A stretch of DNA of 64,000 nt from Ahniella affigens (lineage in GTDB: Bacteria; Pseudomonadota; Gammaproteobacteria; Xanthomonadales; Ahniellaceae): positions 434,001 through 498,000 of the forward strand of contig NZ_CP027860.1 of NCBI RefSeq assembly GCF_003015185.1, read 5' to 3'. The position numbers and the translations under genes were made by a program. The notes under the pieces are model-generated. The model saw only the letters and a list, made by a program, of their open reading frames with translations. It ran no database searches and was not told the DNA's origin. Shown one piece after another: positions 10,747 to 62,926 of this stretch; the stretch's first letter is position 1, and each line of letters opens with the position of its first letter.

Positions 10747-10866
10747 CCCTGGGGAACCACAATTGCGAGCCGATCGCGCTGGTGATTGCGTCGGCGAGCG
10801 GGAAACGCGGCGCGCACCGGACGCTCGAATTGCGCGGGCCCAGAATTGGGGTTGTCCAGCAACGTG

Positions 10867-11340
10867 TTAGAAGCCAGGGAAGAAGATCCCGATCGCCGAG
10901 AACACCACCACAGCCAGCATTGCACTGAAGCCGATTGATGCGAGGATCGTAATGATCAACGTTGGCCAGGCGTGGCTCAACGTACCGAGCTCCGGATGGC
11001 TGCTGGCGCGGATGGCTGGCATCTGGCGCGCGTACGACCAGAGCACGGCAATCAATGTCAGGCCGGCGTAAACACTCGTCGTGCCGGCAAAGCTGTTGAG
11101 TGAGCGCACCAGCGGCACCGCCAGCACGCAAAGTGCGATGCCGCCGAGCAAGATCCATTTGGATCGGGCCAAGCGCCCTAACATGACCTCGTTGCTGCGG
11201 AGCATGTAGATCAGCGCAATCGGGCCTGCAAGGACGCCAACGAGCAACACTTGCCAAGGCAAGTAGAAGACTTTCGGGCCGAGGTCGATTTCCGGCGCTT
11301 CCGCCAGCCTTGATTGGGGCGCTTGAAACGGGTTACTCAT
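10867..11340 (-). CDS. Hypothetical multi-pass membrane protein
   Basis: The 157-residue protein has four hydrophobic segments (about 29-46, 62-80, 88-101 and 128-152) and a short N-terminal cytoplasmic stretch (MSNPFQAPQSRL). No family is recognised. A GGAG motif precedes the chosen ATG. It is the last gene of a leftward run with the YcaR-like gene and nadC; only 12 bases separate it from the nadC stop-to-start interval, so it is probably cotranscribed or has a promoter inside nadC. Confidence 0.6.
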   Translation of the reverse strand: MSNPFQAPQSRLAEAPEIDLGPKVFYLPWQVLLVGVLAGPIALIYMLRSNEVMLGRLARSKWILLGGIALCVLAVPLVRSLNSFAGTTSVYAGLTLIAVLWSYARQMPAIRASSHPELGTLSHAWPTLIITILASIGFSAMLAVVVFSAIGIFFPGF

Positions 11341-11352
11341 CAATGACTCCGG

Positions 11353-12210
11353 TCAGCCATCGATCCGGCCCAAGAGCCGCATTGACAGGTCGATAGCGCG
11401 GACGTGTTTGGTCAAAGCACCTACCGAAATGAAATCGACCCCAAGCGCTGCGACTGCCGCGAGTCGCTCCAGGCTCATGCTGCCGGAAACTTCCAGCTCG
11501 ACCTGGCCTTGCGCCAGCGCAACGGCGGCCTGCAAGTCGTCTGCGCTGAATTCATCGAGCATGATGCGGTCCGGTTTCGCGGCCAGAGCGAGCTGCAACT
11601 CGGCCAGCGATTCCACTTCGATCTCCACCATTCGCGTGCCGGCAATGGCCCGGGCTTTGGCGATGGCCGCCGCGATCGAGCCGGCCGCAGCGATGTGGTT
11701 TTCCTTGATCAGCACGGCGTCAAACAAGCCGATTCGGTGATTGCTGGCACCACCCACACGAACCGCATATTTTTGTGCATGCCGAAGCCCGGGCAGCGTT
11801 TTTCGGGTATCGAGAATCCGCGTCCGGGTGCCGCTGACGGCGTTCGCAAACTGCCGTGAGACGGTGGCCGTCGCCATCAGCGTCTGCAAGAAATTGAGTG
11901 CCGCGCGTTCGCCACTGACCAATGCTCGGACCGGGCCCGTCAGGCGCAGGAACACGTCATTGGCAGCCAGGTTGGCCCCTTCCTCGGCGAGCCATTCGCA
12001 CTTGACCCGGGGATCGATCGTCGCAAAGCAAGCCGCTGCCCACGCCTGGCCGCACATGACTGCGGGTTCGCGCGTCAGAACCTGCGCCCGGCCCCATTCG
12101 TCGGCCGGCAGCAATGCCGCGGTCAGGTCGCCGTCACCCAAATCCTCGGCCAAAGCCCGGGCGACATCCGCCGCGACCTGGGTCGCGTCCGGGCCAACCA
12201 CGCCGTTCAC
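11353..12210 (-). CDS. nadC: Nicotinate-nucleotide pyrophosphorylase (quinolinate phosphoribosyltransferase)
   Basis: Converts quinolinate and PRPP to nicotinate mononucleotide in de novo NAD synthesis. The 285 residues match the family. Visible signatures are EDLGDGDLT near the N-terminus, ERAALNFLQTLMATAT, the RILDTRKTLPGLR motif, the HRIGLFDAVLIKENH motif, and IMLDEFSADD then ELEVSGSM and DFISVGALTKHV at the C-terminus. The start is GTG, overlapping the stop of the upstream YcaR-like gene (GTGA), which implies translational coupling. Confidence 0.96.
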   Translation of the reverse strand: MNGVVGPDATQVAADVARALAEDLGDGDLTAALLPADEWGRAQVLTREPAVMCGQAWAAACFATIDPRVKCEWLAEEGANLAANDVFLRLTGPVRALVSGERAALNFLQTLMATATVSRQFANAVSGTRTRILDTRKTLPGLRHAQKYAVRVGGASNHRIGLFDAVLIKENHIAAAGSIAAAIAKARAIAGTRMVEIEVESLAELQLALAAKPDRIMLDEFSADDLQAAVALAQGQVELEVSGSMSLERLAAVAALGVDFISVGALTKHVRAIDLSMRLLGRIDG

Positions 12211-12479
12211 TTCGGGAAATCCGTGAACTGCAAGGTGCCGATGCCCTCTTCAGGCAACAGCACCGGAATGCCATCGCTGATCCGGTACAACACATCGCCA
12301 TCCTCCCGGATTAACGCATCGGAAACCGGCTCGGTAAGCTGATGACCATTGACCATGAGCGCCGTGCCTTGCGCAATTTCCCGGTTCAGAAACGCCAGTT
12401 GTGACTTGGTGGCCGTGCGCAGCGGCAATTTCTTCACCGGGCAGATCAACGTGCTGACAAATCGGGCATCCAGGGCCAT
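12207..12479 (-). CDS. Trm112/YcaR-like small protein (UPF0434)
   Basis: The 90-residue protein contains the LICPVKK start and the GD-LYRISDGIPVLLPEEG ending that typify the UPF0434/Trm112-like family. Only one of the zinc-binding cysteines seen in some relatives is present. The frame is open further upstream, but MALDARFVS gives the family N-terminus. It is coupled to nadC by a GTGA overlap. The biochemical role of this family in bacteria is not settled. Confidence 0.8.
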   Translation of the reverse strand: MALDARFVSTLICPVKKLPLRTATKSQLAFLNREIAQGTALMVNGHQLTEPVSDALIREDGDVLYRISDGIPVLLPEEGIGTLQFTDFPK

Positions 12480-12501
12480 GGGGCGAACTCCAAAGGTCGA
12501 A

Positions 12502-12518
12502 GCCGCTAAGATAGCGGC
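12502..12518. promoter_or_regulatory. Short perfect palindrome upstream of purE
   Basis: GCCGCTA-AGA-TAGCGGC lies in the 66-bp gap between the divergent YcaR-like gene and purE. It could be an operator or a hairpin, and nothing further can be said from sequence. Confidence 0.3.
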
Positions 12519-12545
12519 CCCGCCCGTCAAATTCATGGCTAAGCA

Positions 12546-13052
12546 ATGAGTGCAAGCAGCAAGATGCCTGTGGTCGGCGTGATCATGGGCTCCCGGTCCG
12601 ACTGGGACACCATGAAGCACGCCTGTGAAACGCTGGATCGCTTAGGCGTGCCCTATGAGCAGCGCGTGGTGTCCGCGCACCGCACGCCAGACCTGTTGTT
12701 CCAATATGCCGAAGGCGCTCGTGCCCGGGGCATCAAGGTCATCATTGCTGGGGCAGGTGGCGCTGCGCACCTGCCGGGTATGGTGGCGGCCAAGACGTCG
12801 CTGCCGGTGCTTGGTGTACCCGTGCAATCAAAAGCCCTGAACGGGCTGGATTCGCTGCTGTCGATCGTGCAGATGCCCGCCGGCATTCCGGTCGGTACGC
12901 TGGCGATTGGCTCCAGTGGTGCGATCAATGCGGCGATTCTGGCGGCCTCGATTCTCGGCACCAACGAGTCCAGATTTGCCGCGGCGGTCGATGAGTTCCG
13001 TCGCTTGCAGACCGAGCAGGTGCTGAGCCGACCGGATCCGAGCCAGACATGA
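12546..13052 (+). CDS. purE: N5-carboxyaminoimidazole ribonucleotide mutase
   Basis: Class I PurE of purine synthesis, moving the carboxyl group of N5-CAIR to give CAIR. The 168 residues carry [10 protein letters not shown], the active-site SAHRTPD with H45, and [12 protein letters not shown]. It overlaps purK by four bases (ATGA), as is usual for the purEK pair, whose product supplies its substrate. Confidence 0.97.
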
Positions 13053-14182
13053 CCCGCGTCGGCATTCTAGGTGGCGGCCAACTCGCCCGCATGATGGCCC
13101 TGGCCGGGGCGCCGCTCGGGCTGCACTTCCGCGTGCTGGATGTCAGTCCTGAGGCCTGCGCGGCCCAGTTTGCACCGCTGATCGTGGCCGATTACACCGA
13201 TCGCGAGGCGCTTGCGCGTTTTGCCGAACAGGTCGATGTGGTGACGTTCGATTTTGAGAACGTGCCAGCCGAATCGGCGCAGTTCCTGGCCGAACGCCTG
13301 CCGGTGTTCCCGAACCCCAAAGCGCTGGCGATCGCCCAAGATCGATTGCACGAAAAGACGTTGTTCCGGGAGCTCGGCTTGGGGACGCCCGCGTTTGCGG
13401 CGGTCGACTCACTGGCCGATCTGCGCCACGCATGTGCTGAGATTGGCTTTCCTTGTGTGTTGAAGACGCGCCGGCTGGGCTACGACGGCAAAGGCCAGTA
13501 TCGCCTGAAGTCCGAAGCGGACATCGAACCGGCGTTTGCCGAATTGGGACGGGTGCCGCTGATTCTCGAAGCATTTGTGCATTTCCGTCGCGAAGTGTCG
13601 GTCGTTGCGGTGCGCTCTCGGCTTGGTGCGTTCAGCGCGTACCCGCTGACCCAGAACTGGCACGCGGACGGCATTCTGTCGGCCTCACTCGCGCCGGCGC
13701 CCCATGCCGAGCGTCTGGCCGCGCGCGCGTTCGCTGCCGCCCAGAAGCTCGCCGATCAACTCAACTATGTCGGCGTGTTTGCGCTGGAGTTGTTTGACAT
13801 CGGTGACGATCAGTTCCTGGTCAACGAAATGGCACCGCGGGTCCACAACTCCGGGCACTGGACTCAAGAAGGCGCGCTCACCAGTCAGTTTGCGAATCAT
13901 CTGCGAGCCGTCGTCGGGCTGCCGCTCGGCAGCACTGAATTGCTGGCGCCGACGGTCATGTTGAACTGGGTCGGTACGCTCCCCGCGCGCGAACCTGTGC
14001 TCGCCTATCGGCGCGGCTATTTTCACGATTACGGCAAGTCGCCACGCGCCGGCCGGAAAGTGGGGCATGCGAACATCGTTGCCGACAACCTGCCACAACT
14101 GGCCGACGCATTGGCGTCGCTCGGTCAGGCACTGGACCGCGAGACCCAGATCGCGCCGGTGCTGCAAGCGTTGAGGTCCTAG
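13049..14182 (+). CDS. purK: N5-carboxyaminoimidazole ribonucleotide synthase
   Basis: ATP-grasp enzyme making N5-CAIR from AIR, bicarbonate and ATP. The 377 residues show the N-terminal [11 protein letters not shown], the ATP-grasp [15 protein letters not shown] and the [14 protein letters not shown] motif. Overlapping ATG/TGA links it to purE. Its TAG stop lies inside the left terminal inverted repeat of the element at 14178-14344, so the final codons may have been altered by that insertion; the C-terminus still looks to be of normal length. Confidence 0.96.
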
Positions 14183-39883: not shown

Positions 39884-40190
39884 CCAGCGTCTGGACCGAA
39901 TCGGCATGGCGGGTCAGGCCCGGCCTGAAACCGGTGCTTGGCCGGAAAAGGCGCTGTTTAGCCGAACGCTAGCGCGCCGTTTTGGGTGGTGCGCCTCGCA
40001 GCCGTAGGGAATGCCGCACCAGTTCGACGCCGCCCAAACCACAGAACTTTGACGCTTCGTCGCCGTGACTGATGGCACAGTGCTGAGCGTAAGTCCCTGA
40101 TTGTTCAACGGTTGGCTGATTGGGATTTTCCTATGCCGGTCTTGGCCGGTTAACATTGGTGTCTCGCTGAAAATTGCCCCGGGAGGCGTC
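39884..40190. other. Gene-free interval before the S9 peptidase
   Basis: 307 bases with no convincing gene on either strand. No clear terminator for the antiporter gene was seen. It presumably holds the promoter of the peptidase gene, but no good -35/-10 pair stands out. Confidence 0.5.
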
Positions 40191-42158
40191 ATGAAGTTGT
40201 TTAGAAGTCTTATTTGCCTGATTTTCTTGTTGACCGGCGTCGTTCATGCCGAACAGATCCCGCTCCGGGAGTTCTTTGAGCATCGCCAGTTCGTCGGGAT
40301 GCAGATTTCGCCGGATGGCCAGAATGTCGCCTTCACGTACGAAGAAGGCACCGAGGTCAAGCTCGCGGTCATGAGTCTTGAGCAGAAGAAGATTCTGTCC
40401 AGTTTCTCGTTTGGCGATCAGATGCACGTGCTGAACTTCTTCTGGGGCAATAACGAGCGCGTGGTGATGTCGGTCGGCAAGATCACCGGCAACCTCGACA
40501 ATTTGGGCCGCCCGACGCATCTTTATGCTGCGAATCTCGATGGCAGCAAGCGTCAACAGATCTTCGAGATGCAGCGCTCCGGGTATCGGTTGCTGAACCG
40601 CCTGGTTGGCGACGACCGGCACATCCTGATCGCCAAGCGCCACGCTTTCGATGGCGGTACCGAGCGTGTACACAAGTTGGACATCTATACGGGTGATCTC
40701 CAGTTCCTGGCGTCCGAACAGCCGGAGCTTTACAACCCGTATTCAGTCATCGCCGACAACGCCGGCAAGGTGCGTGTGGCGGTTGAGTTTGTTGAAGGTA
40801 AGGATATTGATAGCCACCAAACGGTGATTCATGTCCGCAAAGGTGATGTTTGGGAGAAGCTGAGCCTCAAGTCCGAGCGCAAGCAACCACAGTTCGAAGG
40901 CATCGGCTTTTCGGCCGACAACAAAATTGCGTACTTCGCCTCTGACTTCGACATGGCCACCAACGCGCGCATGGGCGTGTTCTCGTACGATTTTGGCACC
41001 GACGAATTCAAGCTGATTCATCGCGATGACGAAGTCGATATCACCCAGGGCATCTACGGCCACAATGGTGACGTGCTCGGCGTTTATGCCGATAAGGGTC
41101 GCGGTGAGCGGCTCTATTTCACCAACAAAGCCGAAGATTCGGTTTTCATCCAATCCGTCGAGCTCGCGTTCAAGGGGCAGGACGTCGCGATCGGTTCGTT
41201 TACTCAAGATGGCAAACGGGCGATTGCCTATGTTCGCTCCGACCGGAATCCAGGCGAGTTCTATTTGTTTGACGTTGCCACGATGAAGGCCAAGTTCTTG
41301 GCGGCGTCGCTGCCCAAACTCAAGGCGGACCAATTGGCCGAGATGGAGCCGGTGACGATTACGGCGCGCGATGGTCTGAAACTGCATGCCATGCTGACCC
41401 GCCCGAAAGACAAGAAGACGGGCCTGCCTTTGATCGTCAACGTGCACGGTGGTCCGTTCGGTCCTTACGACAGCTGGGGCTATGATCCGGAAGCGCAGTT
41501 CTTCGCCAGCCGTGGTTATGCCACGCTGCAGATCAACTATCGTGGTTCGGGCAATCGCGGCAAAGACTTCATGGATATGGGGCGCCGCCAATGGGGCCTT
41601 AAGATGCAGGACGACGTGACCGATGGCACCAAGTGGGCTATTGAGCAGGGCATCACGGATGCTGATCACATCTGCATCTACGGCGGTAGCTACGGCGGTT
41701 ATGCCACGCTTGCTGGTGTTGAGAAGGAGCCCGACCTGTACAAGTGCGGCGTTGGCTACGTGGGTGTCTACGACATGGTGTGGTTCCGCGAAGGCGATAA
41801 CTCCGATGGCGACCGCGGTGGTTCCGAGCAAAAGAAGATGATGAACCAGTGGATGAGCGCCTACGTCGGCGACGACAAAGATGCGCTGCGCGCGGTATCG
41901 CCGGTGCACAACGTCAGCAAGATCAAGGCTGATCTGTTCCTGGTTCACGGCAGCAACGACGTGCGCGTGCCAATCGGCCACTTCTATCGCCTGAAGAAAG
42001 CGCTGGATGCCATCAAGTACCCGTACGAAGAACTGGTTCGCCCGGAAGGTCACGGCTTCTACCAGGTCGATAACCGAGTCGATCTGTATACGAAGATGTT
42101 CGACTTTATCGACGCCCGGATCGGTGCGAGTGCGAAGAAGAAAACCGCTGCCAACTGA
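40191..42158 (+). CDS. Secreted S9 family prolyl-oligopeptidase-like serine peptidase
   Basis: The 655-residue precursor has a signal peptide (MKLFRSLICLIFLLTGVVHA). An N-terminal beta-propeller (about 30-370) precedes an alpha/beta-hydrolase domain with S500 (YGGSYGGYATL), D590 (HGSNDVRVP) and H621 (EGHGF). All three catalytic residues are in S9 order, so it should cleave oligopeptides in the periplasm. GGGAGG stands five bases before the ATG. It is followed by a terminator and is monocistronic. Confidence 0.93.
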   Translation: MKLFRSLICLIFLLTGVVHAEQIPLREFFEHRQFVGMQISPDGQNVAFTYEEGTEVKLAVMSLEQKKILSSFSFGDQMHVLNFFWGNNERVVMSVGKITGNLDNLGRPTHLYAANLDGSKRQQIFEMQRSGYRLLNRLVGDDRHILIAKRHAFDGGTERVHKLDIYTGDLQFLASEQPELYNPYSVIADNAGKVRVAVEFVEGKDIDSHQTVIHVRKGDVWEKLSLKSERKQPQFEGIGFSADNKIAYFASDFDMATNARMGVFSYDFGTDEFKLIHRDDEVDITQGIYGHNGDVLGVYADKGRGERLYFTNKAEDSVFIQSVELAFKGQDVAIGSFTQDGKRAIAYVRSDRNPGEFYLFDVATMKAKFLAASLPKLKADQLAEMEPVTITARDGLKLHAMLTRPKDKKTGLPLIVNVHGGPFGPYDSWGYDPEAQFFASRGYATLQINYRGSGNRGKDFMDMGRRQWGLKMQDDVTDGTKWAIEQGITDADHICIYGGSYGGYATLAGVEKEPDLYKCGVGYVGVYDMVWFREGDNSDGDRGGSEQKKMMNQWMSAYVGDDKDALRAVSPVHNVSKIKADLFLVHGSNDVRVPIGHFYRLKKALDAIKYPYEELVRPEGHGFYQVDNRVDLYTKMFDFIDARIGASAKKKTAAN

Positions 42159-43140: not shown

Positions 43141-43690
43141 GAGGGTTCCCCGTTTGTATCGTTGCCGTGACGCCGGTGGTCCGGCGCGCCTGGTGTCAAT
43201 ACGAGCGCACCAGCCAGTTGGATGCAGGGACTGTTTCTTGTGGGTTGGGCTGCAGTCGCGAACAGGGCTTGCAGTGGGCTTGGTTTGGGCCTGAAGGCCG
43301 TCCTACATTTGAAATGGATGCCAGGGGTGGACGCTTGCAGTTCCGGCCGAAACTGCCGAGTGACACGCCGACGATAGTTGTAGACGCACGTTTGGGGTTG
43401 CAATTGCGTTCGGCCGCAATGTCGCGTTCCGAATGTGTTGCGAACGCGTCTCTTGCCTGTCGGGCTAATGCCGGGTGGTAGGTGATCGTCTGTGGTGCCA
43501 TGGGGTCGCCTGCTCCTGCTCCTGAACCTTGCACAGACTCCGATCAACGCATGCGATCGAGGTGATTCACTGCCTCGGGCGCGGCTTGAACCACGCAGCA
43601 GGCGAATCCCGCAATTTCCTTAAAGTATTGAGCTTGAGTTGCGCTCACCATTCGCATGGAGTGTGCCGTCCGTGCGGACAAGGAGTGTCA
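43141..43690. other. Gene-free interval with one REP-like palindrome
   Basis: 550 bases between the SnoaL-like and AraC genes with no supported gene. A REP-like GGGCCTGAAGGCCGTCCTACA lies at 43288-43308, related to the palindromes at 6031 and 6161. CGCCGG-TGGT-CCGGCG at 43171-43186 forms a short hairpin near the SnoaL start. Confidence 0.45.
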
Positions 43691-44656
43691 ATGTGGCTCC
43701 ATGAGAAAGTTCTAACCCGAGCCGAAGTCTGGGAATGTCCCACTGGTGAACGCTTGATCCCGCGCCTGGGAATCATGGTCTTGGGACGTGGCGCGTCCCT
43801 GGCCTTGCCAATCGGTTGGCTTGGCGTCGTGATCAACTTGCGCGGTTGTGCCCGCGTATCGAGCGAGATTGGTCTGCTGAGCCTAACGGGGCGAAAGTGG
43901 TTGGTGACCGATCCCGACCTGCCTACTCACGTGCAGTCGGCCCGCCTCGGTCTCACCATTGTCATCGCAACCAATCCACCGGCCCGGCGCCAGATGCGAG
44001 TCGAAAACCGGCTACTGCCCGGAATCGGCGCCTTGCCCAAGGATCTGGCCCAGATGTTGGTGACGCAATTGCGAAACAGTAAGGCGCCAGCACAAGCCTT
44101 TTGGCAACGCGATCATCAGGTTCAGAGTGTGATCGAATGCCTCGAACATGCCCAGCGCCCGATTTTTTCGCGACTATCGCGCGTGCCTGGCAAATCCCGC
44201 CTGGCGCGTGTAAGAACGCTGGCCCGATTGCAGCGGGCCAGCCTCTATGCGGCCTGCAATACCGACCGACCGGTGCGAGTTGCCGATATGGCCGGTTTGG
44301 CGCGGTTTTCGAGCTGGCACTTCTCTCGAACCTTTGCGCGCGTCTATGAGGCGACACCGCTGGAATTTCTGCAAGCCCTGCGTCTTGGCAATGCGCGCGA
44401 GTTGCTGTGTCGGCCAGATCTGTCGGCAGGTGAAGTTGCCAATGCCTGTGGGTTCGAAAACGCCAGTGCATTCGCACGAGCTTTTCGGCGGCGTTTCGGG
44501 CATGCCCCGAGTGAGATGCGAATGCGCAACGCCGAAAAGTGGCACACGGAGCAGGATGAAATCGCAAATCCGGACGCGCGGCAATCGACGCGTCTGCCTA
44601 TTTTTGACTGGTGCGATAACGCGCACTTAACAACTGGAGTCTATTCAAGATGCTAG
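43691..44656 (+). CDS. AraC family transcriptional regulator
   Basis: The 321-residue protein has an unrecognised N-terminal sensing domain and a C-terminal AraC double HTH. The first HTH reads VRVADMAGLARFSSWHFSRTF and the second LSAGEVANACGFENASAFARAF, ending FGHAPSEMR. The ATG at 43691 has AGGAG six bases before it; the frame is open 54 codons upstream. Its last seven bases overlap the start of the TonB-dependent receptor gene, so it probably regulates that gene. The C-terminal 38 residues after the HTH are low in conservation and overlie the shared 21-bp element. Confidence 0.85.
   Translation: MWLHEKVLTRAEVWECPTGERLIPRLGIMVLGRGASLALPIGWLGVVINLRGCARVSSEIGLLSLTGRKWLVTDPDLPTHVQSARLGLTIVIATNPPARRQMRVENRLLPGIGALPKDLAQMLVTQLRNSKAPAQAFWQRDHQVQSVIECLEHAQRPIFSRLSRVPGKSRLARVRTLARLQRASLYAACNTDRPVRVADMAGLARFSSWHFSRTFARVYEATPLEFLQALRLGNARELLCRPDLSAGEVANACGFENASAFARAFRRRFGHAPSEMRMRNAEKWHTEQDEIANPDARQSTRLPIFDWCDNAHLTTGVYSRC
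44611..44631 (+). promoter_or_regulatory. 21-bp element shared with the second TonB-dependent receptor
   Basis: It contains the palindrome GTGCG-ATAACG-CGCAC followed by TTAAC, and is identical over 21 bases to 62742-62762 on the minus strand. It ends 18 bases before the receptor start codon and lies inside the 3' end of the AraC gene. An operator or a leader hairpin near the ribosome binding site is possible. Confidence 0.6.
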
Positions 44657-47190
44657 ATAATCGATTGAGCCACTCGATCCGGCTCGCACTATTTGCGACG
44701 TTCGCGTCTCTGTCTGCCACCGCCCTTGCGCAGGACGACAATCCCGAGTCCGGTGAGCAAACCCTTGAAACCATCGTGGTGACCGGTTCGCGCATCAAGC
44801 GTGCCGACATTGAGGGTGCGTTGCCGATTCAAGTCATTGATCGCGCCCAGATCGATGCCTCGGGCGACGTCTCGGTGGCTGAACTGATGCGCGACTCCAC
44901 GTTTGCCTCGTTCGGCAACTTCCGGCCGCAATCCGGTTCGACCGGCCAGTCCACCTCGGACATTGATCTGCGCGGCTTGGGTTCGCAACGGACCCTGGTC
45001 CTGATCGACGGTCGGCGCGTCGCCAAGACGCCGTTCACGGGTGCGAATGCCAACTTGAATCTGATTCCCGTCAGTGCGATTGAGCGAATTGAGATTTTGT
45101 CTGATGGCGCATCGGCCATCTACGGTTCGGATGCCATTGGTGGTGTGGTGAACCTGATCACTCGCAAGGATTTCCAAGGCGCTGAGGTCAGCTATACCCG
45201 GGGCAATCCTTCGGTCCGTGGCGGTGATACCGAGGTAGGGTCCGCCTCGTTTGGCGCCTCTGGCGATCGCGGGCGCGTTCTGGCAACCGTCTCCTATAAC
45301 AAGCGTGGCATTGTATTCACGCGCGACCAGATTGGCGGTGACATTCTTGGCGTGTCGTTCTTCGGTAACAACTACCGTCTGCCGAATGCGGCGGGTACTG
45401 GCCCGGCGGGCGTCAATCTGCCGCTGCCGGGCTTCAACTGCTCGGGCAACAATTTCTACGAGACGAACCCTGGCGGCCCGGGCAACATCTGCTCGTTCAA
45501 TTTCAATGCGATTGCCGCCAATGACGCTTCAACCGACACCTCGGCGTTGTTCGTTTCTGGTGATTACCAGATCAACGATAACTGGTCGACCTACATGCAG
45601 GCGTCGGTTGCCCGGAACGAATCTTTTGGACGTTATGCACCCACCGCCGGTCAGGTCTTTGTGCCCGAAGGTTCGCCTAACGATCCGGTCCCCGGCGATA
45701 ATCTGGGCGCCTATGTTCGGCACCGCTTTGCCGCGGTCGGCCCGCGCGACGACACCACCGATGAGAACACCTACGATGTGCTGGTCGGATTCCGTGGACG
45801 CCTGGGAGAGACGGTTGATCTGGACGTCGGTGTGCGCCAGTTCGAGGACCAAGGCTACATTCTCGGCCACAACTACATTGTGCGTCGGCTTGCCGAAGCG
45901 GCGATTGCCGAAGGTCGATATGACTTGCGTGACCCCTTCGGTTCGGATCGTGAGACCCTGGACTCGATCTCTGCCACGATCAATCGCGACTCCCATTGGT
46001 ATAGCCGCGAGCTGTATGCCACCGCATCGTTCGAACTCTTTGAGATGGGCGGTGGTGCATCGTCGATGGCCGTAGGTGGCGAATGGCGATCCGAGGACTA
46101 CGCTGACATTTACGACTCGTTGCAGGCGTCGGGTGAGATCGAAGGTTCGGCAGGCAACTCTGCGGCGGGCACCCGATATGTGCGCAGCGCCTTCTTCGAA
46201 TGGCTGTTTCCGTTCAGCGATACTTTGGAGTTCACCGTCGCAGGGCGCTTCGATAAGTACTCTGACTATGGCTCTGACTTTGCTCCCAAAGTCGCCTTTC
46301 GCTGGCAGCCCATGGATCAACTGACCTTCCGCGGATCGTACGGTGCTGGTTACGCCGCGCCAAGTCTGCCGCAACTTTACACCTCGGCGGCCTTTTCAGC
46401 GGACTCAGTGATCGATCTCCGATCGTGCCAGGCAGTCGGTCGGACCGACTGTGCTGCCAACCCGCAGGTGCAGGTTGACGCTACGGTCATTTCAAACCCC
46501 GAACTGAAATCAGAGCAGTCGAAGCAGTACTCTTTTGGATTGGCCGCCGATCCCTTGGATTGGTTGAACCTGACCGTCGACTACTACCATACGCAGATCG
46601 ACGACACGATCACCAATGTCGGACCGCAGACTCTGGTCACTCGGCAGAATCTCGGGATTCCGTTACCAGCTGGCCTGTCGGTTCAGCGCGATCCCACCAC
46701 GGGCGCGATTGTGCTGATTGTCCGTGGCGCCACCAACGAAGGTGACCTCAAAACGAATGGCGTGGATTTCTCAATTGGCGCCAACTTCGAACTGGGCGCC
46801 TTTGGTACGCTGACTAGTCGCCTGCAAGGCACGAAGGTCTTGGGCTGGGAGCTGGATGGCACTGAGTTCGCAGGATCGTTTGGCGCACCGGACTTGCGAT
46901 TGGGGCTTAACAATACCTGGACCTTGGGCGACTGGTCGGTTGCCTTCAATTCCAATTTTATCGACGGCACCCCCGAGGATACGGTCTCGCCTGCGATTGG
47001 AGGCTATACCACGCACGATCTGCAGTTGGTCTGGAAGGCACCGTGGAATGCCACCCTCGCACTGGGTGCCACCAACATCGGCGACAAGTACCCGAGTCTG
47101 GACTCCGCATTTCAGGGCCGGCCGTGGAATTTCTACTTGTATGACGCTTACGGGCGCACCCCCTACGTTCGCTACACCCAAACGTTCTAA
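44650..47190 (+). CDS. TonB-dependent outer-membrane receptor
   Basis: The 846-residue precursor has a signal peptide (about 1-28), a TonB-box-like ETIVVTGSRIKR, and a plug domain with SDGASAIYGSDAIGGVVNL. A long beta-barrel follows, ending in a terminal Phe (YVRYTQTF) as needed for outer-membrane assembly. It takes up a ligand using TonB energy; the substrate is unknown. It is highly similar to the receptor at 60155-62722. The start overlaps the AraC gene. GGAG lies ten bases upstream. Confidence 0.94.
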   Translation: MLDNRLSHSIRLALFATFASLSATALAQDDNPESGEQTLETIVVTGSRIKRADIEGALPIQVIDRAQIDASGDVSVAELMRDSTFASFGNFRPQSGSTGQSTSDIDLRGLGSQRTLVLIDGRRVAKTPFTGANANLNLIPVSAIERIEILSDGASAIYGSDAIGGVVNLITRKDFQGAEVSYTRGNPSVRGGDTEVGSASFGASGDRGRVLATVSYNKRGIVFTRDQIGGDILGVSFFGNNYRLPNAAGTGPAGVNLPLPGFNCSGNNFYETNPGGPGNICSFNFNAIAANDASTDTSALFVSGDYQINDNWSTYMQASVARNESFGRYAPTAGQVFVPEGSPNDPVPGDNLGAYVRHRFAAVGPRDDTTDENTYDVLVGFRGRLGETVDLDVGVRQFEDQGYILGHNYIVRRLAEAAIAEGRYDLRDPFGSDRETLDSISATINRDSHWYSRELYATASFELFEMGGGASSMAVGGEWRSEDYADIYDSLQASGEIEGSAGNSAAGTRYVRSAFFEWLFPFSDTLEFTVAGRFDKYSDYGSDFAPKVAFRWQPMDQLTFRGSYGAGYAAPSLPQLYTSAAFSADSVIDLRSCQAVGRTDCAANPQVQVDATVISNPELKSEQSKQYSFGLAADPLDWLNLTVDYYHTQIDDTITNVGPQTLVTRQNLGIPLPAGLSVQRDPTTGAIVLIVRGATNEGDLKTNGVDFSIGANFELGAFGTLTSRLQGTKVLGWELDGTEFAGSFGAPDLRLGLNNTWTLGDWSVAFNSNFIDGTPEDTVSPAIGGYTTHDLQLVWKAPWNATLALGATNIGDKYPSLDSAFQGRPWNFYLYDAYGRTPYVRYTQTF

Positions 47191-47235: not shown

Positions 47236-47754
47236 GCCGCATCAGGGTTGCACCGCATTTCGGTGGGCAATCGATAGCTTGCCGGCAGGCTGTGATGGCT
47301 ATCAAGCATAAGAAGGAACTTAGGCCCAAGCGGCACCTGAGCAGCCTCGATTTGCGGCGGCGCAAGTGTTTCCGATCATTGCAAGATCGGCAAAGTCTTG
47401 GCGCATGTTTGGAATCGCTGTTGTGCCGATAGCAGCGCTAACCGTGGCGCGCCGCTTCGTTCCGACACAAATTGCGCTGGCAACGGGTGTCCGTCAAAAG
47501 AATGCACCCGTATTGTGCCAGGCTTGCGCAAGCACAATGATTCTCAGGCGCGTCGTGCTCACCTGGCGTTTGGCCGGGGCGGTCATGGCCCATGGCGCGA
47601 CGACAGTGCGTGGCCAGATCGTTGTCCGATGATGCCGCCAACAACGGCAAACGGTACGCGCATGTTCGAAACGTGCCGCGCGCATCCCGCGCAATTAGGC
47701 TACGTCAGGGTTGGGCTTTGCGGACCGAGCCCCTGTCGGAAAAGGTATGAATCC
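47236..47754. other. Gene-free interval with a palindrome upstream of the second AraC gene
   Basis: 519 bases without a supported gene. The AraC frame is open through much of it, but no start there has a good ribosome site. ATTGTGC and GCACAAT (47512-47518 and 47532-47538) form an inverted repeat around the palindrome GCTTGCGCAAGC. This may be a regulator site for the AraC gene. Confidence 0.4.
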
Positions 47755-48681
47755 ATGGGAAGCACACATTCATTCGAACTTGCGTCGGTTGAAACACTCC
47801 TGTTCGAAGGCGGCGGATTCGCGGTAGCCGGCTTTCGCTGCCCGGCCACACATCCACACTTTGCTGGAGCCAGTAATCTTCGCAACTTTTGCTTTGGGCT
47901 GCCGAGGCGGTCATCGCGCCTGACTGTCAACGACGGCCCCTGTTTCGTTGCCGATCGCAACACACTGGTACTGCTCAACGCTGGCGACTCCTATGCGCGC
48001 CAACGCTGTGGCAGCGACCGGGACGATACCGATGTCGTCGGGATCAGCAGCGATGTGCTCACTGACATCGTCAAGCACGTCGCGCCTGACACGCTGCAGC
48101 GTTTTGGCGGGCCGAGGTTTCCGTGCAACGATGTCACGATGCCCCCTTCGCTCTACTTTCAAGGACGCCTGACGTTCGAGCGGCTTCGAAATACTCACGT
48201 TCATAAACTGGCCGCCGAAGTCAGGCTGCTCGAGCTGGCGGGAAATGTCGTTGCCACAGCGGCCAATGCGGCTGGTGCACAAATTGATGGAGGCTTTCGT
48301 CGAGAGCTGGCGGGACGTCGCGCCCGCGAAGCCGTGCGACAAGTGAAAGAGCTCATGTGTCACTCGGTGCCACAGTGCGTTGATCTGAAGAGCCTCTCCG
48401 ACGCTGTACATATGTCGCAGTTTCATCTGTGCCGACTGTTTAAGCTGGATACGGGCACATCGATCCACAAGTACTGGCGACAGCTGGTTCTGGCTCAGTC
48501 TCTCGCCATGCTCAGCTGTCGTAGCATCGACATCTCTGGAATCGCGCTGTCCCTCGGCTTTGCCGCCCAAAGTCATTTTACGACGGCTTTCCGACAATAC
48601 TTCGGTGTCACGCCGGGGCAGTATCGTCGCGTTAACATGAATGGGCCGGGCAGCCTTGATGAGGCTCTTGGGAGCGGTTGA
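47755..48681 (+). CDS. AraC family transcriptional regulator
   Basis: The 308-residue protein has an unassigned N-terminal domain (about 1-190) and a C-terminal double HTH. The first helix-turn-helix reads VDLKSLSDAVHMSQFHLCRLF and the second IDISGIALSLGFAAQSHFTTAF, ending GVTPGQYRR. The ATG at 47755 is preceded by AAAGGT. It lies downstream of the TonB-dependent receptor and upstream of the permease gene, both on the same strand. Its target is unknown; the permease is a candidate. Confidence 0.83.
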   Translation: MGSTHSFELASVETLLFEGGGFAVAGFRCPATHPHFAGASNLRNFCFGLPRRSSRLTVNDGPCFVADRNTLVLLNAGDSYARQRCGSDRDDTDVVGISSDVLTDIVKHVAPDTLQRFGGPRFPCNDVTMPPSLYFQGRLTFERLRNTHVHKLAAEVRLLELAGNVVATAANAAGAQIDGGFRRELAGRRAREAVRQVKELMCHSVPQCVDLKSLSDAVHMSQFHLCRLFKLDTGTSIHKYWRQLVLAQSLAMLSCRSIDISGIALSLGFAAQSHFTTAFRQYFGVTPGQYRRVNMNGPGSLDEALGSG

Positions 48682-60154: not shown

Positions 60155-62722
60155 TCAGAACGCCTGCGTGTAACGAATGTACGGTGTGCGGCCGTATGCG
60201 TCATACAGGAAGAAGTTCCACGGACGACCACCGGTGGCCGAGTTCAGGTCCGGATACTTGTCGCCAACGTTCGTTGCACCGACTGCCAGCGTACCGTTCC
60301 ATGGCGTCTTCCAGGTCAGCTGCAGATCGTGTGTGACATAGCTGCCAATCGCGACATTGGTGCTATCGCCATCCGTGCCACCGATCAGATTGCTGTTCAA
60401 GTTCACACCGAAGTCGCCCAGAGTCCAGGTGTTCAGCAGGCCGAGACGGAGGTCTGGCGTGCCGAAGGTGTCGATGAACTCCACGTTGTCGATCTTGAAC
60501 GTGTTGATCCACGAACCTTGCAGACGCGATTGCAGTGCGCCAGCATTGCCGAAGTCAAAGTTGGTGCCGACCGAGAAGTCGACGCCTCGCGTCTCGACAT
60601 CGCCTTCGTTCGTTTGTCCGCGGACCACGAGCACAACGCCGCCAGTCACCGGATCACGCTGCACCGAGAGACCCGGTGGCAGGGCAATGCCGTTGTTCTC
60701 GCGAGTGATCAGCGTCTGCGAGGTCAGCGCGGCAATACGGCCGTCGATTTCCGTGTTGTAGAAGTCCACCGTGATGTCCAACCACTCGAACGGATCCGCA
60801 GCCAGACCCAGCGAGTACTGACTCGACTGTTCGGAACTCAACTCCGGATTCGAAATGACCGTCGCATCAATCTGGATCTGCGGGTTCGTGGCGCAGTCAG
60901 TGCGGCCGAAGGCCTGGCAGGTGCGCAGGTCGATGACTGAGTCTGCCGAGAACGCCGCAGAGGTGGTCAGCGCTGGCAGCGTCGGCGCTGCGAAGCCCTC
61001 GCCGTAAGAACCACGGAACGTCAGCTGATCCATCGGCTGCCAACGGAATGCGATCTTCGGGGCGAAGTCGGAGCCGTAGTCCGAGTACTTGTCAAAGCGG
61101 CCAGCCGCGGTGACTTCCAACGTGTCGGTGATCGGGAACAACCATTCGAAGAAGGCCGAACGGATGCTGCGATCGCCGCCAGCGGTGTTGCCCGAGGCGC
61201 CTTCGATTTCACCCGCAGATTGCAGGGAATCGTAAACATCGGCGTATTCTTCCGACCGCCATTCCAGACCGACGGCCATCGACGACGCACCGCCACCCAT
61301 TTCAAACAGATCAAACGCGGCTGTACCGAAAACTTCCTGACCAAACCAGGTCGCATCGCGATTGGTCGTTGCCGAGATCGAGTTCAGCGTGTTGCGATCG
61401 GCTGCAAACGGATTGCGGAGATCGTAGAGACCTTGAGCAATCGACTGCTCAGCTAGGCGGCGAACGATGAAATTGCGGCCGAGTTCGTAGGCCTGGTTCT
61501 CGTACTGGCGGGCACCGAACTCCAGATCCACGGTGTCGGCAACCCGACCCTTGAAGCCGACCATCAAGTCATAGGCGTTTTCGTCGGTGTTGGTGTCGCG
61601 CGGGCCAACGGCGGCAAAGCGATGCCGCACGAACGCACCCCGACCGTCGCCTGGCACCGGATCGTTTGGCGAGCCTTCCGGTACGAACACTTGGCCTGGT
61701 GTTGGTGCGTAACGGCCGAACGACTCATTGCGCGTCACGGACGCCTGGAAATAGGTCGACCAGTCATCGTTGATCTGATAGTCGCCCGATGTGAACAAGG
61801 CGGACGTGGTGGCCGACGCTTCGTTCGCGGCAATTGCGTTGAAGTTGAACGAGCAGGTGTCGCCCGCGCCGCCCGGATTGGTCTGGAAGAACAGATCTTG
61901 TGGGCCACCAGTGCCCAAACCGGAGCCGCTGCAATCAAAGCCCGGCATCGGAATGAACGCGCCAGTTGGCGCCGTGCCGGCGGCATTGGCCAAACGGTAG
62001 TTGTTGCCGAAGGTCGACAGACCGAGGGCGTTGCCGCCAATCTGATCGCGGGTGAAGATCATGCCGCGCTTGTTGTACGACACGGTCGCCAGCACGCGAC
62101 CACGATCGCCAGACGCGCCGAAGGTCACCGAGCCACCTTCGATGTCGCCGCCAGTCACCGCCGGATTGCCCGTGGTGTAACTGATCTCAGCGCCTTGGAA
62201 ATCCTTGCGCGTGATGATGTTGACGACGCCACCGATCGCGTCCGAGCCATAGATGGCGGACGCGCCATCAGACAGGATTTCGATACGCTCGACGGCGCCG
62301 ACCGGAATCAAGTTGAGGTTCGCATTGGCGCCGGTAAACGGGCTCTTGGCGACGCGACGGCCGTCAATCAGCACAAGTGTGCGCTGCGAGCCAAGACCAC
62401 GCAGGTCGATGTCGGAGTTTGACTGACCCGATGATCCCGATTGTGGGCGGAAGTTGCCGAACGATGCAAACGTGGAGTCGCGCAGCAGTTCGGCGACCGA
62501 AATGTCGCCCGAGGCATCGATCTGGGCGCGGTCGATCACTTGCACCGGCAGCGCGCCCTCCAGATCTGCGCGTTGAATGCGCGAACCGGTGACGACGATC
62601 GTTTCGAGTGATTTCGAATCTTCGTCGGACTCGTCCTGGGCAAACGCTGGTGCGGCCAGCACGCCCAAGCTCGCCGTCAAAAGCGACCAGCGAATGGCAT
62701 TAGATAGAAAACGTGTTTTCAT
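60155..62722 (-). CDS. TonB-dependent outer-membrane receptor (paralogue)
   Basis: The 855-residue precursor starts MKTRFLSNAIRWSLL with a signal peptide, a TonB-box-like ETIVVTGSRIQR and a plug with SDGASAIYGSDAIGGVVNI. The barrel ends YIRYTQAF with a terminal Phe. Over its whole length it is close to the receptor at 44650-47190, with near-identical plug and C-terminus; differences cluster in mid-barrel loops. The start at 62722 was chosen for the signal peptide; the upstream open frame carries the shared leader element. Ligand unknown. A strong terminator follows. Confidence 0.95.
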   Translation of the reverse strand: MKTRFLSNAIRWSLLTASLGVLAAPAFAQDESDEDSKSLETIVVTGSRIQRADLEGALPVQVIDRAQIDASGDISVAELLRDSTFASFGNFRPQSGSSGQSNSDIDLRGLGSQRTLVLIDGRRVAKSPFTGANANLNLIPVGAVERIEILSDGASAIYGSDAIGGVVNIITRKDFQGAEISYTTGNPAVTGGDIEGGSVTFGASGDRGRVLATVSYNKRGMIFTRDQIGGNALGLSTFGNNYRLANAAGTAPTGAFIPMPGFDCSGSGLGTGGPQDLFFQTNPGGAGDTCSFNFNAIAANEASATTSALFTSGDYQINDDWSTYFQASVTRNESFGRYAPTPGQVFVPEGSPNDPVPGDGRGAFVRHRFAAVGPRDTNTDENAYDLMVGFKGRVADTVDLEFGARQYENQAYELGRNFIVRRLAEQSIAQGLYDLRNPFAADRNTLNSISATTNRDATWFGQEVFGTAAFDLFEMGGGASSMAVGLEWRSEEYADVYDSLQSAGEIEGASGNTAGGDRSIRSAFFEWLFPITDTLEVTAAGRFDKYSDYGSDFAPKIAFRWQPMDQLTFRGSYGEGFAAPTLPALTTSAAFSADSVIDLRTCQAFGRTDCATNPQIQIDATVISNPELSSEQSSQYSLGLAADPFEWLDITVDFYNTEIDGRIAALTSQTLITRENNGIALPPGLSVQRDPVTGGVVLVVRGQTNEGDVETRGVDFSVGTNFDFGNAGALQSRLQGSWINTFKIDNVEFIDTFGTPDLRLGLLNTWTLGDFGVNLNSNLIGGTDGDSTNVAIGSYVTHDLQLTWKTPWNGTLAVGATNVGDKYPDLNSATGGRPWNFFLYDAYGRTPYIRYTQAF

Positions 62723-62741
62723 GGGGTGGAATCCTGAATTC

Positions 62742-62762
62742 GTTAAGTGCGCGTTATCGCAC
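62742..62762 (-). promoter_or_regulatory. 21-bp element shared with the first TonB-dependent receptor
   Basis: It is identical to 44611-44631 over 21 bases and contains GTGCG-N6-CGCAC followed by TTAAC. It ends 19 bases before the receptor ATG, almost the same spacing as at the first receptor (18). The flanking sequences differ. Confidence 0.6.
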
Positions 62763-62926
62763 GCAGAGACGATACGGGCCCGCATGCGCGGATTCTTTGC
62801 CGTTCTTGGTTGATCACTTGGCATTACCTGCTGTGCATGCCGGTTTGATCGCGCCGATACGGAGGCACGCGAGACGAAAGTCGTCGAACGAGACGTTCAA
62901 CGACTAATCCGAAACGTGGATCGCGC

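Follow-up and report, generated by a model that had tools for sequence, protein, structure and literature searches.

A 21-bp element (GTGCGATAACGCGCACTTAAC) occurs three times in the genome of Ahniella affigens, and each copy is found directly upstream of the Shine-Dalgarno (SD) sequence of a gene for a TonB-dependent receptor. The three receptors, termed here T1, T2 and T3, are paralogs. Comparison of the copies and of the genes they precede shows that the element is conserved by selection at the nucleotide level, and the three genes are probably under one shared regulon element. The element appears specific to this lineage and is carried by three of four close paralogs. There is perhaps an even chance that it acts in cis as a leader-RNA site for a small RNA or an RNA-binding protein.

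The element and its receptor genes

Two of the receptor genes are located in the 64,000-nucleotide stretch of DNA that was analysed (the window; positions without a prefix refer to it). T1 (44650-47190, plus strand) was identified by open reading frame and domain search, and encodes a protein of 846 aa with Plug and TonB_dep_Rec_b-barrel domains. T2 (60155-62722, minus strand) encodes 855 aa, also with plug and barrel domains, and has 74% amino acid identity to T1. An in-frame ATG further upstream, at 62824, could also open the T2 frame, but the signal peptide begins at the ATG at 62722. Protein identity among T1, T2, T3 and a fourth close paralog, T4 (C1:4785193), is 64-78%, and the closest paralog of T2 is T4 (78%). 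In a tree of the four, T3 is the first to branch off, with T1, T2 and T4 left as an unordered group. The element is absent from T4.

Copy 1 of the element is at 44611-44631 on the plus strand and consists of a putative hairpin (44611-44626) plus TTAAC; copy 2, an exact match to it, is at 62742-62762 on the minus strand. The identity, coordinates and strands of these two copies given in an initial annotation of this DNA proved exact on re-reading, as did the spacing, with copy 1 ending 18 bp before the T1 ATG at 44650 and copy 2 ending 19 bp before the T2 ATG at 62722. Copy 3 (GTGCGAAAACGCGCACTTAAC; C1:5540999-5541019, minus strand) came from a genome-wide scan, differs from GTGCGATAACGCGCACTTAAC by one mismatch, and is 15 bp ahead of the T3 ATG. 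SD-like sequences were read directly as GGAG for T1 (44636-44639, plus strand), 4 nt past the element, and AGGA for T2 (62732-62735, minus strand), 6 nt past it. The distance from the end of the element to the SD (4, 6 and 5 nt in T1, T2 and T3, respectively) varies less than that to the ATG (18, 19 and 15), albeit in only three cases, and the orientation is the same in all three. The element is asymmetric, having TTAAC on one flank only, and by eye a loose direct repeat (GTGCGATAAC / GCGCACTTAAC) can be seen within it, with a period of approximately one helical turn.

Genomic and phylogenetic distribution

A scan of the whole genome (6.12 Mb, two contigs) with up to 3 mismatches yields these three sites in total and no further sequence on either strand, and the reversed-pattern control yields 0; the number of matches expected in dinucleotide-shuffled windows is 0.00, likewise with up to 3 mismatches. 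A relation to receptors had been proposed from the two copies in the window, with copies at random places as the outcome that would count against it. All three copies precede paralogous receptors, and none is elsewhere. Weak copies ahead of the other receptors of this genome were not found at up to 5 mismatches.

Across 398 other genomes of the order, a set that included no genome of the same genus, GTGCGN6CGCACTTAAC was matched in one genome, and the reversed control had 7 hits. In a class-wide sample there was 1 match, at 2 mismatches, and the control likewise gave 1 hit, which is the chance level. Because both searches produced chance-level matches only, the element appears, within the genomes searched, to be restricted to this lineage. 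A one-mismatch match in one relative (G005) precedes a carboxylate-amine-ligase-like gene and is probably due to chance. A literature search found no description of an element like this, and an Rfam 15 search of the window detected only a tRNA and no match to the element.

A different repeat was observed at C1:1593192-1613591, where GTGCGAGGTTACGCAC occurs five times within 20 kb, once with a change, beside TCTAACG/TTAGGC-like sequence. The copies could be attC sites in the cassette array of an integron.

Selection at the nucleotide level

Identity at fourfold-degenerate sites is 38% between T1 and T2, 36% between T1 and T3 and 47% between T2 and T3, where 31-33% is expected at saturation. The element, on the other hand, is identical at 21/21 or 20/21 positions among the three genes (95-100%), and identity drops to background right at both edges. 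It is this combination, fourfold sites near saturation next to a sharply bounded element that is nearly invariant, that argues for selection. The flanks of copies 1 and 2 share nothing beyond the 21 bp, in agreement with the unrelated surroundings described initially.

In codon terms, the three copies differ by a single D-to-E replacement and by no synonymous change, and the element is not in a fixed frame with the ATG (18, 19, 15). The constraint is therefore on the nucleotides and not on coding; the varying frame and the lack of synonymous changes were also the grounds for rejecting CDNAHLT as a conserved peptide that the element would encode. The shared control of a receptor family, originally proposed from two copies, is strengthened by a third copy out of three before a receptor, a near-constant position, the same orientation and a saturated background.

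Palindrome and folding

The palindrome GTGCG-N6-CGCAC, singled out in the initial annotation, is indeed present, but by itself it is unremarkable: permuting the letters of the 21-mer gives arms of at least 5 bp in 4.6% of cases, and among random 21-mers from the window the share is 6.3%. The signal is the whole asymmetric 21-mer. As an operator motif the palindrome alone was rejected, with 26 genomic sites versus 34 for the control and no enrichment; near-copies at C1:5106256 and C1:2085101 are inside open reading frames. The core 10-mer GCGAWAACGC was rejected as a wider regulon motif, with 53 genomic sites versus 53 control sites. As it is at the chance level, a copy at C1:2786963, downstream of a fourth AraC relative, was left uncounted.

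The sole change among the three copies falls in the spacer, and the GTGCG/CGCAC arms are invariant in all three. With an invariant stem and three near-identical copies, there is no covariation to speak for or against an RNA structure. Folding of the leaders relative to shuffled sequences gives z of about -0.3 for T1 and T2, no better than the shuffles, and -4.5 for T3, which does fold better.

Neighbouring regulators and a possible DNA operator

Upstream of T1 is a gene for an AraC/XylS-type regulator (AraC1; 43529-44656, plus strand), probably starting at 43691 (MWLHEKV). The element is contained in the 3′ end of this gene, which also overlaps the start of T1 (ATGCTAG). It should be pointed out that this open reading frame extends well beyond the ends of its relatives, through the element and into the start of T1. 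A second AraC-type regulator, outside the close family of the first, is found just 3′ of T1 (47398-48681, plus strand). As with T1, an AraC-type gene is directly upstream of T3, so that the element adjoins an AraC gene at two of three copies, and another AraC relative is approximately 3 kb further upstream of T3.

A DNA operator positioned over or just after the transcription start, by which a dimeric repressor (binding the palindrome) or an AraC-type monomer or dimer (binding the asymmetric 21 bp) would switch the three genes, is a possibility to be taken seriously, albeit short of probable. The strictness of the sequence is in keeping with this, and a rigid 21 bp would also suit a protein-DNA site; the inverted GTGCG/CGCAC arms, the loose direct repeat of about one helical turn, and the AraC-family genes near T1 and T3 point in the same direction. 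However, the palindrome is at about the 5% chance level and is unenriched genome-wide, and the copies have neither a shared -35 or upstream activator sequence nor, at copies 1 and 2, a promoter match.

AraC control in particular, which the initial annotation had put forward, did not find specific support. It is weakened because no AraC gene was seen beside T2, with approximately 5 kb read upstream of copy 2, and because the element is absent beside two other members of the same AraC family (C1:2787143 and C1:5545486). PchR-type regulators are known for AraC/XylS operators beside TonB-dependent receptor genes, and the usual place of an AraC site is upstream of the promoter; a distance of 15-19 bp from the start codon would be atypical. 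The present element resembles such operators in having an AraC gene immediately before both T1 and T3 and in its length, a binding site of approximately 20 bp being the right size. It differs in its position 15-19 bp before the ATG, in the lack of an AraC gene seen at T2, and in the lack of a site at the other AraC relatives; a cognate gene is thus not beside each site, although such adjacency is usual and not strictly required.

Two peptidase genes were also observed near element-bearing receptors. An S9 prolyl-oligopeptidase-type peptidase (40101-42158, plus strand), a possible functional partner, is upstream of the AraC-T1 pair, and an M13-type peptidase gene follows T3 (locus L074, reverse strand, 10863-13064), hinting at peptide uptake.

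The older control region of T4

T4 retains what looks to be an older promoter and leader. A promoter-like block of the family (GTAAAAATTACGTTATCCT) is kept in T4 and in Pseudoxanthomonas and Arenimonas relatives and is absent from T1-T3; the T4 version (CGTAAAAATTACGTTATCCT) resembles the blocks of the Pseudoxanthomonas and Arenimonas homologs, and the T4 leader (CCCAGACTCTAGAGTCCACCAATCTGACGTTGGAGA) resembles an Arenimonas leader. A search for leaders of the type TGTCCCGAAC...TTGGAGA located them ahead of TonB receptors in four related genomes, and its control gave no hits. Since T4 and the relatives keep the older promoter and leader and T1-T3 are without them, it appears from these comparisons that the 21-mer took the place of the older control region in T1-T3, or else that T4 lost the 21-mer.

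Several observations concern the older region itself. A conserved leader of the form TGTCCCGAAC-(short palindrome)-CTGACGTTGGAGA is found before TonB receptors in the related genomes and Arenimonas (T4 locus C1:4785000-4788500). The palindromes in TGTCCCGAAC-type leaders differ (TGTGTTTAGACACA, ACTCTAGAGT and GTTNNAAC) and could be a covarying hairpin; this is suggestive, and folding of the TGTCCCGAAC...TTGGAGA leader is not significant. A promoter-like block, GTAAAANTT(A/G)CGTTATCCT, is seen approximately 85-130 bp before TonB receptor genes of Pseudoxanthomonas, Lysobacter and Arenimonas and before T4, and a similar block is ahead of a distant receptor at C1:4900782. The older leader, TGTCCCGAAC-N-CTGACGTTGGAGA, shares with the 21-mer its conservation and its place immediately ahead of the SD in the same kind of receptor gene, and some versions have a short palindrome. 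It is unlike the 21-mer in that the two have no sequence in common; T4 has a variant of it and T1-T3 have none.

Alternatively, the element could itself be a core promoter block that replaced the ancestral family promoter, with GATAAC as the -10 and a very short 5′ UTR. That T4, without the element, keeps the promoter-like block and T1-T3 do not is in accord with such a replacement, but the proposal is improbable: copy 3 has GAAAAC in place of GATAAC, a conserved or recognisable -35 is lacking, and all 21 bp are conserved instead of two hexamers. A functionless remnant of a recent duplication, gene conversion or small mobile repeat, which the paralogy of the receptors might bring to mind, is very improbable, as the 21 bp are identical where synonymous sites and flanks are near saturation, conversion tracts would have homogenised the neighbouring signal-peptide codons, which are divergent, and a dispersed repeat (REP or MITE) does not fit with three copies only, all equally placed relative to genes.

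A candidate leader-RNA element

A site in the messenger leader is favoured over a DNA operator because the SD spacing is the tighter one, copy 1 is within the AraC open reading frame, no sigma-70-like promoter hexamers were found around copies 1 and 2, and comparison of the flanks of the copies revealed no -35, upstream activator sequence or other block shared upstream. Points against it are the unremarkable folding of the T1 and T2 leaders, the lack of covariation and of an Rfam match, and a rigidity over 21 bp that would fit a protein-DNA site as well. Alongside the identity, exclusivity, position and selection that are observed, and the absence from T4, we infer that the element is read as RNA, and we infer its reader as well.

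In the proposed mechanism, the element would be part of the 5′ leader of T1, T2 and T3, directly upstream of the SD, where a possible GUGCG/CGCAC hairpin and an unpaired UUAAC may form the common target of one trans-acting factor. This factor would be either an RNA-binding protein or a small RNA that base-pairs with the site, and would adjust in concert how accessible the three transcripts are to ribosomes or how stable they are. With copy 1 inside the tail of the AraC open reading frame, a message that comes from upstream would also carry the element. More tentatively, this may be a previously undescribed 21-nt leader-RNA motif that was recruited in one lineage, brought three duplicated receptors under one post-transcriptional regulator, and replaced the older leader.

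Dozens of TonB-dependent receptors can be present in a bacterium of this order. With its strict sequence and three members, the leader element offers a directly testable way into the question of how duplicated receptors come to be rewired as one regulon, and T4 serves as a natural control without the element.

Comparison with known systems

The element adds a further case to a type of regulatory site that is already known, and does not found a new type. In Caulobacter crescentus, the small RNAs CrfA and SisA act post-transcriptionally on TonB receptor mRNAs, and binding to the 5′ UTR has been proposed (PMC12559287). In E. coli, OmrA/B act on the cirA, fepA and btuB mRNAs (PMC11162775). The likeness is in one trans-acting factor that would reach several receptor mRNAs by way of a short sequence near the ribosome site. 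The differences are that the 21 nt found here are longer and stricter than the usual seed pairings and are confined to one gene family in one lineage, and that CrfA, SisA and OmrA/B are named small RNAs, whereas the regulator proposed here is putative.
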